Shown here: positions 11,453 to 14,295 of the stretch, piece by piece
Layout: every line of letters begins with the position of its first letter
How positions within the stretch are numbered: the first letter of the stretch is position 1
Source: Salipiger thiooxidans
GTDB taxonomy: Bacteria > Pseudomonadota > Alphaproteobacteria > Rhodobacterales > Rhodobacteraceae
DNA length: 64,000 nucleotides
Direction of reading: 5' to 3'
Assembly: GCF_900102075.1 (NCBI RefSeq)
Contig: NZ_FNAV01000001.1
Coordinates: 186,001-250,000, forward strand
Program-made: the position numbers and the translations under genes
The notes under the pieces: model-generated
What the model was told of the DNA's origin: nothing
The model's input: only the letters and a program-made list of their open reading frames with translations
The model's database searches: none

Positions 11453-11914
11453 TCAGCCCAGCCGCTTTGCCATGTAGACCCGGTGCAGGCCGTTGACCTC
11501 GGCCCGATGCGTCTCGACATAGCCGCGCCGCAGATAGATCTCGATGTTCTCGACCATGGTGACGTGGGTATAAAGCGTGATGCGGTCATACCCGGCGGCC
11601 CGCGCCCGCGCCTCGGCATGGTCCATGAGACGCCGCCCGAAGCCCCTGCCCTGCGCCCATGGCGCCACGGCGACGTTGTCCAGCAGCATGTGCTCGGGCT
11701 CGGGCACCAGCACCAGGAGCCCCGCGATGCGACCGTCGGCGCGCAGCACCTCGATCTGCCCCGCCGCCAGCGGCACGGCGTAATCAGTGCGCATCGGGCC
11801 GGGCAGCATCTCCATGCGCTCGACGTAATGACCATAGGCGCCGGACACCAGCTCGCCGATCTCGGCCAAGTCGGCGACCCAGCCCGGAGTGATGGCGTCG
11901 TCCCTGTCCTGCAT
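11453..11914 (-). CDS. GNAT-family N-acetyltransferase
   Basis: 153 residues with the acetyl-CoA binding motif A (NVAVAPWAQGRGFGRRLMDH; Q/RxxGxG/A pattern) and motif B (ENIEIYLRRGYVETHR). The ATG at 11914 has GGAGG 6-7 nt upstream. It converges on lipB with a 9-bp gap. A strong terminator of the DUF1127/small-RNA unit lies just upstream (11938-11977), so it likely has its own promoter or depends on read-through. The substrate is unknown. Confidence 0.88.
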   Translation of the reverse strand: MQDRDDAITPGWVADLAEIGELVSGAYGHYVERMEMLPGPMRTDYAVPLAAGQIEVLRADGRIAGLLVLVPEPEHMLLDNVAVAPWAQGRGFGRRLMDHAEARARAAGYDRITLYTHVTMVENIEIYLRRGYVETHRAEVNGLHRVYMAKRLG

Positions 11915-11928
11915 GGCCCCTCCCACCG

Positions 11929-12072
11929 CAAAAGAATGACCGGAGCGGCCTGTTCCGGGGAGAACGCCGCTCCGGTCACCATAGCCTGACACGGGCGGGA
12001 GCAACACCGTGCAGGAGCAAACGCTTCCGGTCGGGACAGGAGCGAAGCGTTTGTGACGGGCGCGCGCCGGGA
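11929..12072 (-). ncRNA. CcsR/cuckoo-like small RNA in the 3' region of the DUF1127 gene
   Basis: Directly after the DUF1127 stop on the minus strand come two strong hairpins. The first (12018-12053) is a perfect 10-bp stem CAAACGCTTC/GAAGCGTTTG with a 16-nt loop GCTCCTGTCCCGACCG. The second (11938-11977) is a perfect 12-bp stem GACCGGAGCGGC/GCCGCTCCGGTC, loop with CTCCCC, followed by ATTCTTTT, a textbook terminator. The linker repeats TTGCTCCTG and TTGCTCCCG, so four C/U-rich anti-Shine-Dalgarno-like motifs are exposed. In Rhodobacter sphaeroides the CcsR RNAs follow a DUF1127 gene (RSP_6037) and carry CCUCCUCCC motifs in hairpin loops; the related cuckoo family has the same design. The match here is by architecture, not by alignment. 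Confidence 0.65.
11938..11977 (-). terminator. Strong intrinsic terminator of the DUF1127/sRNA transcript
   Basis: A 12-bp perfect stem, with a further inner GTTC/GAAC pairing around TCCCCG, then ATTCTTTTGC on the minus strand. It ends the DUF1127-sRNA transcript before the GNAT gene. Confidence 0.8.
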
Positions 12073-12270
12073 TCAGCGCGCGCGGAAGACGTGGGCGAGG
12101 ATCTCGTCGCGCCGCAGCCCGAGCCGGGCGAGCTCCTCGTCGGTCAGCGCCCGCAGCGAGGCGATGCGCTCTGCAAGCTGGCGCTGGCGACGCGTGAAGG
12201 GGGTCTCGAAGATGCGCGCGATCCTGCGCGATACGGAAAAGGACGGCGTCCGGTGGTCGATGCAGGTCAT
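12073..12270 (-). CDS. DUF1127 (YjiS-like) small protein
   Basis: A 65-residue basic protein with the C-terminal DUF1127 pattern RQLAERIASLRALTDEELARL followed by GLRRDEILAHVF (the first stretch is given without its initial residues where needed). The ATG at 12270 has GGAGGGG upstream. Small DUF1127 proteins in alphaproteobacteria are linked to phosphate, stress and small-RNA metabolism, and some bind RNA. Here the gene is followed by a hairpin-rich RNA, matching the known CcsR arrangement. It is divergent from ctaD across a 351-bp gap (12271-12621). That gap contains a palindrome at 12374-12389 and an FNR-type box. Confidence 0.85.
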   Translation of the reverse strand: MTCIDHRTPSFSVSRRIARIFETPFTRRQRQLAERIASLRALTDEELARLGLRRDEILAHVFRAR

Positions 12271-12373
12271 GGGTGGCAGCCCCTCCTGGCGGAAATGTCG
12301 AATCTGGAAATGCGGCGCCGGAAATTGGTTCGGCAGATGAGACAATCCTAGCCGACTGCGCCCCGAGTCGCAG

Positions 12374-12389
12374 GTCAGGAATACCTGAC
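12374..12389. promoter_or_regulatory. Palindrome upstream of the DUF1127 gene
   Basis: A perfect inverted repeat GTCAGG-AATA-CCTGAC about 105 bp upstream of the DUF1127 start and about 230 bp upstream of ctaD. It has the size of a dimeric regulator site. No specific regulator is identified. Confidence 0.3.
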
Positions 12390-12499: not shown

Positions 12500-12513
12500 T
12501 TGATCCAGATCAA
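12500..12513. promoter_or_regulatory. FNR/FnrL box upstream of ctaD
   Basis: TTGATCCAGATCAA is a perfect match to the FNR/Anr/FnrL consensus TTGAT-N4-ATCAA. It lies 109 bp before the ctaD start. This suggests direct control of the oxidase gene by an oxygen-sensing FNR-type regulator, most simply repression at low oxygen. Confidence 0.8.
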
Positions 12514-12621: not shown

Positions 12622-14295
12622 ATGGCAGACGCCGCCATTCACGGCCACGAACACGAGGACAACCGGGGGTTCTTCACCCGCTGGTTCATGTCGACGAATC
12701 ACAAGGACATCGGGATTCTCTACCTGATCACCGCTGCGATCGTTGGCCTCATTTCGGTGTGCTTCACCGTCTACATGCGTCTGGAGCTCATGGAGCCCGG
12801 CGTGCAGTACATGTGCATGGAGGGCGCGCGTCTGATACCGACCGCGACCGAGAACTGCACCCCCAACGGCCACCTGTGGAACGTGATGATCACGGGCCAC
12901 GGCATCCTGATGATGTTCTTCGTGGTCATTCCGGCGCTGTTCGGCGGTTTCGGCAACTACTTCATGCCGCTGCAGATCGGCGCGCCGGACATGGCGTTCC
13001 CGCGCCTGAACAACCTCAGCTACTGGCTCTACGCCGCGGGCACCACGCTGGCGGTCTGCTCGGTGTTCTCGCCGGGCGGCAACGGCCAGCTCGGCTCGGG
13101 CATCGGCTGGGTGCTCTACCCGCCGCTCTCGACCTCGGAAGCGGGCATGTCGACCGACCTCGCGATCTTCGCGGTGCACGTTTCGGGCGCCTCGTCGATC
13201 CTCGGCGCGATCAACATCATCACCACCTTCCTGAACATGCGCGCCCCCGGCATGTCGCTGTTCAAGGTGCCGCTCTTCGCCTGGTCGGTGTTCGTCACCG
13301 CGTGGCTAATCCTGCTGTCGCTGCCCGTGCTGGCCGGCGCCATCACCATGCTGCTGACCGACCGCAACTTCGGCACCACCTTCTTCCAGCCCTCCGGCGG
13401 CGGTGACCCGATCCTCTACCAGCACATCCTGTGGTTCTTCGGCCACCCGGAAGTTTACATCGTGATCCTGCCCGGCTTCGGCATTGCCAGCCACGTGATC
13501 GCCACCTTCTCGCGCAAGCCGGTCTTCGGCTACCTGCCGATGGTCTGGGCGATCATCGCGATCGGCGCGCTCGGCTTCGTCGTGTGGGCGCACCACATGT
13601 ACACCGTGGGCATGTCGTTGTCCCAGCAGAGCTACTTCATGCTCGCGACCATGGTCATCGCCGTCCCGACCGGGGTGAAGATCTTCTCGTGGATCGCGAC
13701 GATGTGGGGCGGCTCGATCGAGTTCAAGACGCCGATGCTCTTCGCCATCGGCTTCCTGATCCTCTTCACCATCGGCGGCGTGACCGGCATCGTGCTGAGC
13801 CAGGCCGGCGTCGACCGCGCCTATCACGACACCTACTACGTCGTGGCGCACTTCCACTACACGATGTCCATGGGGGCCGCGTTCACCATCTTCGCGGGCT
13901 GTTACTTCTACATGCCAAAGATGACCGGCAAGATGTATCCCGAGGCGCTCGGCAAGCTGCACTTCTGGATGTTCTTCATCGGCGTGAACCTGACCTTCTT
14001 CCCGCAGCACTTCCTGGGCCGTCAGGGCATGCCGCGCCGCTACATCGACTACCCGGAGGCCTTCGCCACCTGGAACACCCTGTCGAGCTGGGGCGCGCTG
14101 CTGTCCTTTGCCTCCTTCCTGCTGTTCTTCGGCATCGTGATCTACACCGTGCGCAAGGGTGCTCCGTGCACCGCGAAGAACCCCTGGAACGAGTACGCGG
14201 ACACGCTCGAGTGGACCCTGCCCTCGCCGCCGCCGGAGCACACTTTCGAGCAGCTCCCCAAGCGTGAGGACTGGGACAAGCAGCACGCGCACTGA
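12622..14295 (+). CDS. ctaD: aa3-type cytochrome c oxidase subunit I
   Basis: 557 residues with about 12 transmembrane helices; the catalytic core of the respiratory oxidase. Visible ligands: the heme a His in [11 protein letters not shown] (near residue 93), the CuB centre with cross-linked Tyr in [10 protein letters not shown] (near 275), the HH pair in WAHHMYTVG (near 325), and heme a/a3 histidines in [12 protein letters not shown] (near 410). The GHPEVY motif marks an A1-type oxidase. The start [10 protein letters not shown] at 12622 has AGGAGG 7-12 nt upstream. Subunits II and III are not nearby, as in other Rhodobacteraceae where ctaD is separate. An FNR-type box precedes it and a terminator follows. 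Confidence 0.98.

Follow-up and report, generated by a model that had tools for sequence, protein, structure and literature searches.

A conserved three-hairpin RNA with C/U-rich loops behind a DUF1127-like gene at the Salipiger ctaD locus

Small RNAs of the CcsR/cuckoo/ar14 family are described, in the sections cited here, as carrying the motif CCUCCUCCC in each hairpin loop (PMC3927594 section 2.7; PMC10746234). The cited part of PMC7143759 places an anti-Shine-Dalgarno motif in all ar14 loops, and RS0680a is presented as two stem loops with an anti-Shine-Dalgarno motif in each (PMC3927594 section 2.7). Within the literature library searched, no publication on an sRNA in Salipiger turned up.

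Here we analyse a window of 64,000 nucleotides (G000:C39:186001-250000) from a Salipiger genome of 5.87 Mb (G000), in which the original prediction had placed a DUF1127 gene followed by a CcsR/cuckoo-like RNA. The locus was compared with a sample of 20 Salipiger genomes and with 394 genomes of the family, using two covariance models, R1 built from 5 loci and R2 built from 10 loci.

Three hairpins downstream of a DUF1127-like gene

The features of the locus, in window coordinates, are as follows.

11453–11914, minus strand: GNAT acetyltransferase gene, directly downstream (Pfam Acetyltransf_1, 54.2 bits)
11930–12072, minus strand: candidate 3′-UTR-derived RNA of three hairpins and a U-rich tail (R1 match, fold, covariation)
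11930–11936, minus strand: U-rich tail UUCUUUU of the H3 terminator (inspection)
11937–11978, minus strand: hairpin H3, of intrinsic-terminator form, loop UUCUCCCC with CUCCCC (folding, covariation)
11985–12015, minus strand: hairpin H2, loop UUGCUCCCG, in the genus often UUGUUCCC (folding, comparison, covariation)
12018–12053, minus strand: hairpin H1, perfect 10-bp stem and 16-nt loop with CUCCU, loop GCUCCUGUCCCGACCG (folding)
12073–12270, minus strand: DUF1127-like protein gene, 65 aa (ORF list, Pfam, homologues beside ctaD)
12373–12389, minus strand: perfect dyad GTCAGGTATTCCTGACC, ahead of the DUF1127/RNA unit, a candidate regulator or promoter site
12500–12513, no strand assigned: site TTGATCCAGATCAA, which we take to be an FNR-type box, between the DUF1127/RNA unit and ctaD, some 110 bp ahead of the latter
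12622–14295, plus strand: ctaD, cytochrome c oxidase subunit I, the divergent neighbour (Pfam COX1, 510.4 bits)

The three hairpins and the U-rich tail lie in the gap between the stop codon of the DUF1127-like gene and the GNAT start, and a Pfam scan of the window identified a LipB-like gene beyond the GNAT gene on the opposite strand. As for the short DUF1127 gene that stands in front in the DUF1127-cuckoo (CIN1) arrangement, the window ORF scored 12.4 bits (E 0.14) against Pfam DUF1127 (PF06568), below the gathering cut-off of 23.3, while 10 of the 15 proteins scanned from its alignment matched the family at E ≤ 1, the best at 1.4e-4. The DUF1127 assignment of the original prediction is thus retained as a weak similarity. 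G000 encodes further DUF1127 proteins at other places.

The 153 nt from 11920 to 12072 fold with a predicted energy of −75.2 kcal/mol (z = −3.92), and none of 200 shuffles was equally stable. Two perfect long-stem hairpins separated by a linker had been proposed; H1 is indeed perfect over 10 bp, but three hairpins exist, H3 is perfect only over its basal 13 bp (its 20-nt arms are 85% complementary), and part of the supposed linker forms H2 (12015–11985), which had been overlooked. The exposed CTCCT and CTCCCC motifs were read correctly, as CUCCU in the H1 loop and CUCCCC in the H3 loop. Two more CTCC motifs had been assigned to the linker: the 143 nt hold five CTCC in all, against a mean of 1.43 and with at least five in 8 of 1000 shuffles, but one of the two linker motifs lies in the H2 loop and the fifth CTCC sits paired in the H3 stem. 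The C/U-rich loops are CUCCUGUCCC in H1, UUGCUCCCG in H2 and UUCUCCCC in H3; two to four hairpins with such loops were looked for, and the window has three, with UCCC in each.

The last hairpin was correctly recognised as an intrinsic terminator in form, since folding and inspection show a G+C-rich hairpin, H3, followed by the U-run UUCUUUU. A terminator consensus scan limited to loops of 3–8 nt returned one site, where shuffles lead one to expect 0.5; this site is a 5-pair stem within the 3′ arm and not H3 as a whole. R1 matches the window at 11930–12054 with 126.9 bits, the window locus being part of its training set, and the RNA occupies a single place in the genome.

Relation to the CcsR/cuckoo/ar14 family

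The family motif CCUCCUCCC is absent from both strands of the 64-kb window. The Rfam covariance-model search that had been proposed as a check found neither CcsR1 (RF02791) nor ar14 (RF02344) in the window stretch, even at E ≤ 10; across 16 homologous or sister loci, neither appeared at E ≤ 1. As a positive control, both models matched a cuckoo array of the same genome at 41.7–52.5 bits, with E down to 1.4e-10, short of their gathering thresholds (65.3 and 58.8). This array follows a different DUF1127 gene, at G000:C28:33256, which scores 45.1 bits with Pfam, and holds at least 10 exact copies of CCTCCTCCC within 517 nt (L003, G000:C28:33391-33907), the contig ending inside it; the CCTCCTCCC loops recur in units of about 100 nt, and exact paired CCTCCTCCC motifs occur in 20/20 Salipiger genomes. 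Around the cuckoo locus of G000, R2 reached at most 6 bits, and BLASTP found no convincing similarity between the DUF1127 proteins of the window and of the cuckoo locus (E 0.50).

Judged from sequence, the ctaD-locus RNA is not a member of the CcsR/cuckoo/ar14 family, which it resembles in outline of arrangement, and the membership originally proposed had to be given up; the results also gave no pointer to the control of stress or C1 metabolism suggested with it. A highly diverged member that arose from the DUF1127-cuckoo (CIN1) locus and lost the exact motif would account for the similar layout, in which a small DUF1127-type gene precedes hairpins with C/U-rich loops. Such an origin is nevertheless improbable, given the lack of CCUCCUCCC and of CcsR1/ar14 matches at a locus whose own genome yields both, the genuine array with its many exact motif copies and the mutual silence of the two loci in the protein and R2 comparisons.

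Conservation and distribution

Among the 20 Salipiger genomes, all 20 carry ctaD and 13 have the DUF1127-like gene beside it. R2 gave sense matches at the ctaD locus in 12/20, including two outside its training set, G006 (39.2 bits) and G007 (32.9 bits). R1 matched at the ctaD position in seven further Salipiger genomes with E from 2.6e-13 to 0.009; five of these (G019, G018, G002, G011, G016) range from 2.6e-13 to 1.2e-4, and the remaining two are G006 (30.4 bits, E 0.007) and G007 (30.3 bits, E 0.009). The calls in G006 and G007 rest on position together with score, because R1 also matches weakly elsewhere at close scores, the best such match away from ctaD being G009:C1 (28.3 bits, E 0.02) and the rest having E ≥ 0.24. 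Weaker antisense R2 matches occur at RNA loci because the terminator is palindromic, and the one in the window (36.8 bits) exceeds the sense match of G007 (32.9 bits). In G001 the gene is present and R2 found no match for the RNA.

The order of three hairpins was seen in L036–L040, L042, L046 and L048, whereas G016 and G007 seemingly have two hairpins only, and the H1 loops of G018 and G006 are without UCCC. Loop types in the genus include UUGUUCCC, UCGUCCCC and ACUGUCCC for H2 and UUCUCCCC, UCUCUCCCC, UUUUCCCC and GCUCCCC for H3; the C/U-rich loops, of the CTCCCC and GTTCCC types, persist despite changes in the stems. In three genomes the encoded protein is only 28–36% identical to that of the window (G018 30%, G019 34%, G006 28%), and the RNA is kept in all three. 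Relative to the window, the H2–H3 DNA of G018, G019 and G006 is 80, 82 and 72% identical, against 60–61% for the coding sequence and 60–66% for the intergenic DNA on the ctaD side; in other pairs the whole RNA falls below the coding sequence (64 against 76% for G003–G017, 78 against 84% for G019–G018). In G002 the DUF1127-like gene carries an in-frame TAG (L045, G002:C8:129007-129153), possibly a sequencing error, and the RNA is kept.

We then counted compensatory changes in an alignment of 10 Salipiger loci (A4), whose fitting to the structure favours the outcome: 93.1% of its cells are paired, and both partners have changed in 16 of 32 pairs, where shuffles give 6.2 (0/500 as high) and slid controls no more than 9. 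Over the modelled pairs of A4, both-side changes affect 8/9 pairs in H1, 5/10 in the outer and inner stems of H2 and 3/13 in H3. A hand count of H3, independent of the model, in which 11 distinct hairpins were set flush (G012, identical to G005, was left out), gave both-side changes in 5 of 13 pairs and 5 unpaired cells out of 143. The covariation sought in related loci is therefore present in all three hairpins, and the absence of compensatory changes, on which the original prediction would have been abandoned, does not apply because the stems do show both-side changes.

Hairpins with a stem of at least 7 pairs and a UCCC loop were also enriched in sequence past the gene. Within 150 nt, 18 were found in 10 Salipiger loci (10 of the 12 carriers, G002 and G006 being left out), with at least one in 9 of the 10, and a single one past the related genes of 28 loci in other genera (L061); dinucleotide shuffles gave 0.07 and 0.05 per locus, respectively. 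A broader count over the 900 nt upstream of ctaD yielded 25 UCCC loops across the 12 carriers, 22 of them inside the RNA; the opposite strand had 0, and approximate shuffles gave about 0.7 per locus. A conserved structured RNA after the DUF1127-like gene is thus well supported: the 3′ RNA of the ctaD locus is genuine and structured, with significant matches so far only in Salipiger.

Two explanations in cis bear on these data. The GNAT start lies 15 nt past the U-rich tail on the same strand, as might be expected of a cis-acting leader or attenuator of the GNAT gene. The RNA is, however, present in L042, L043 and L045, where the locus holds no GNAT match; the attenuator was rejected for this reason, and such a role in cis appears very improbable. 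The hairpins might instead belong to the DUF1127 mRNA itself, as a terminator with stabilising hairpins whose C/U-rich loops have no role in trans. H3 and its tail have the appropriate form, a terminator that is needed would also show conserved stems with compensatory changes, and the anti-Shine-Dalgarno signal (see below) is weak; yet a terminator needs neither three hairpins nor conserved loop letters of the CTCCCC and GTTCCC types, a UCCC-loop hairpin follows the gene in 9/10 Salipiger loci against 1/28 in other genera (L061), and G002 keeps the RNA despite its in-frame stop, if this is no sequencing error. We regard this account as a real possibility, although on balance an unlikely one.

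Across the family, 28/394 genomes contain a similar DUF1127-like gene at E ≤ 1e-6, 2 of them being Salipiger, and ctaD was also present at 19 of 29 inspected loci of that gene. R2 matched 2 of the 394 genomes, both Salipiger, under stricter filters that lose weak matches. On the 28 family loci R2 gave sub-threshold matches only: two of these, at L069 (16.5 bits, E 0.22) and L061 (15.2 bits, E 0.37), are in sense and just past the gene, and those at L063 and L080 (21.1 bits, E 0.033) run antisense to it. At L061 (G300, outside Salipiger), a hairpin with loop AATCCCCC and then a terminator-like hairpin lie at about 1675–1765, 3′ of the DUF1127-like gene. We treat L061 as a lead towards a distant relative, and no more. 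Among 80 named lipB loci, 65 of which show ctaD, R1 matched five: S. abyssi (L082), S. bermudensis (L085 and L133), S. mucosus (L084) and Citreicella sp. C3M06 (L083).

A wider distribution inferred from UCCC loops was considered and rejected. Such loops occur within 900 nt upstream of ctaD at 21 loci of other genera, and the inspected ones fall in ORFs: when 10 of the 21 were inspected together with L093, 10 of these 11 loci had the loop inside one conserved ORF (starting M-x-x-Y-D-P-x-N) and L101 had it in other ORFs.

Seven Salipiger genomes are without the DUF1127-like gene at ctaD. Five of them (G004, G010, G013, G014, G015) carry other hairpins, namely a GGTATTCC-bearing element followed by a hairpin with a GUCCC/GUUCCC-type loop and a strong hairpin with a CUCCC loop region; in G008 and G009 no such hairpin stretch was seen. 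The five stretches (L198 and L200–L203, of G015, G013, G010, G004 and G014) lie about 250–450 nt upstream of ctaD, display an outer GTGCCG/CGGCAC pairing and are a possible stand-alone RNA. R2 fails on the gene-less stretch (7.6 bits, E 8.4, at L202), and covariation among the five sequences is not significant: both sides changed in 3 pairs, shuffles give 2.1, and 150 of 500 shuffles reach the observed value. An automatic count of UCCC loops gave 2 each in G004, G010 and G015, 1 in G013 and 0 in G014, with no clear excess over shuffles. Because of the R2 E-value of 8.4 and the non-significant covariation, these hairpins are a hint only, and a weak one, that the RNA can stand alone without the gene.

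Possible mode of action and comparison with known systems

We favour, with a probability of about 50%, a 3′-UTR-derived small RNA that would act in a CcsR-like manner, its loops pairing with ribosome-binding sites, while being no CcsR/ar14 member. Transcription would begin at a promoter close to the 12373–12389 dyad, and the DUF1127 transcript would be cleaved past the stop codon, whereupon a 3′ part of about 125–140 nt would persist as the small RNA. By analogy with ar14 and CcsR, the C/U-rich loops would pair with purine-rich ribosome-binding regions of mRNAs, and the DUF1127 protein may be a partner of the RNA, as described for CcaF1 and CcsR in the part of PMC10253847 cited here.

A sigma-70 promoter scan found no promoter. 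The only exact match to GTCAGGNNNNCCTGACC in the whole genome of G000 is the dyad at 12373–12389, and the exact dyad core GGTATTCC is present in 4/13 gene-carrying against 5/7 gene-less Salipiger loci. A second, similar dyad stands next to the first in G017, G012 and G005. A regulon defined by the dyad was rejected: beside the single exact genomic match, the search with one mismatch gave 18 matches against 5 for the reversed pattern, palindromes being counted twice, and these look scattered, the other one in the window falling within an ORF. An FNR-like pattern precedes ctaD in 18/20 Salipiger loci. A connection with respiration is possible, to judge from the cytochrome c oxidase gene next to the RNA and the presumed FNR-type box that lies between them.

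Loop pairing was evaluated on 294 ORFs of a single contig, of which about 444 kb were covered, with the first ATG taken as the start. For the loops of H2 and H3, pairing is stronger ahead of start codons than in upstream DNA, and the difference exceeds that of 39 of 40 shuffles of the loop concerned. H1 (6/40 shuffles as low), the linker (5/40) and the 8-nt cores of H2 (21/40) and H3 (16/40) do not stand out. The test has little power because the genuine cuckoo motif is also unremarkable in it (6/40 shuffles). The ctaD mRNA itself was considered as a target and rejected, because, over 10 genomes, the loops did not pair with ctaD leaders consistently better than with shuffled ones; single outliers were the H2 loop of G011 (2/200), two G013 loops (6 and 5), and the H3 loop of G011 and one G010 loop (13 each).

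In a different role, the C/U-rich loops might bind or titrate an RNA-binding protein, perhaps a DUF1127 protein. The cited part of PMC10253847 reports the DUF1127 protein CcaF1 to be RNA-binding and to act on CcsR maturation, and repeated similar loops would fit repeated binding; against this, the sister genomes bear UCCC-loop hairpins with no adjacent gene, although the window's genome encodes other DUF1127 proteins. We consider a protein-binding role doubtful and decidedly less than probable. A further reading, which is tentative and in our view rather unlikely, takes the RNA as an independent C/U-loop family at Salipiger ctaD that arose behind a DUF1127-type gene apart from the cuckoo RNAs and can outlive this gene; in the five gene-less sisters, an RNA with UCCC-loop hairpins of its own would then appear to start from a promoter that shares the dyad core. 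If so, the 3′ ends of DUF1127 genes would be recurrent nurseries of anti-Shine-Dalgarno RNAs.

Should the favoured reading of a small RNA hold, the link between DUF1127-type genes and C/U-loop RNAs would extend beyond the CCUCCUCCC family. A cuckoo array and a motif-divergent analogue in one genome would then allow the share of the loop letters in function to be tested, and the same pair could show whether DUF1127 proteins process RNAs besides CcsR.

Among described systems, the UTR-derived sRNAs of the UdsC type in Rhodobacter resemble the Salipiger RNA, as proposed here, in that the 3′ UTR of a small-protein mRNA is the source of the sRNA (cited parts of PMC9779115 and PMC8625941); their sequences were compared with it through the Rfam scan alone. 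The Rhizobiales cuckoo RNAs ar14/NfeR1/SmelA075 (RF02344) share the three hairpins and the C/U-rich loops, and their stems are described, in the sections cited, as variable in sequence (PMC10746234; PMC3927594), whereas the terminator stem of the Salipiger RNA is strongly conserved in sequence. Unlike ar14, the Salipiger RNA carries no CCUCCUCCC and gives no ar14 match, and its significant matches are confined to Salipiger. CcsR1–4 with CcaF1 of Rhodobacter sphaeroides (RF02791) are alike in that a small DUF1127-type gene is followed by same-strand RNAs and a terminator (PMC10253847, in the part cited), and the hairpin loops are C/U-rich in both systems. The CcsR1–4 loops carry CCUCCUCCC (PMC3927594, section cited), whereas the Salipiger RNA is one three-hairpin unit with UCCC-type loops; it also differs from CcsR1–4 in having no Rfam match, a different DUF1127-like protein and a place beside ctaD. 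The genuine equivalent of CcsR1–4 in the window's genome begins at G000:C28:33391.
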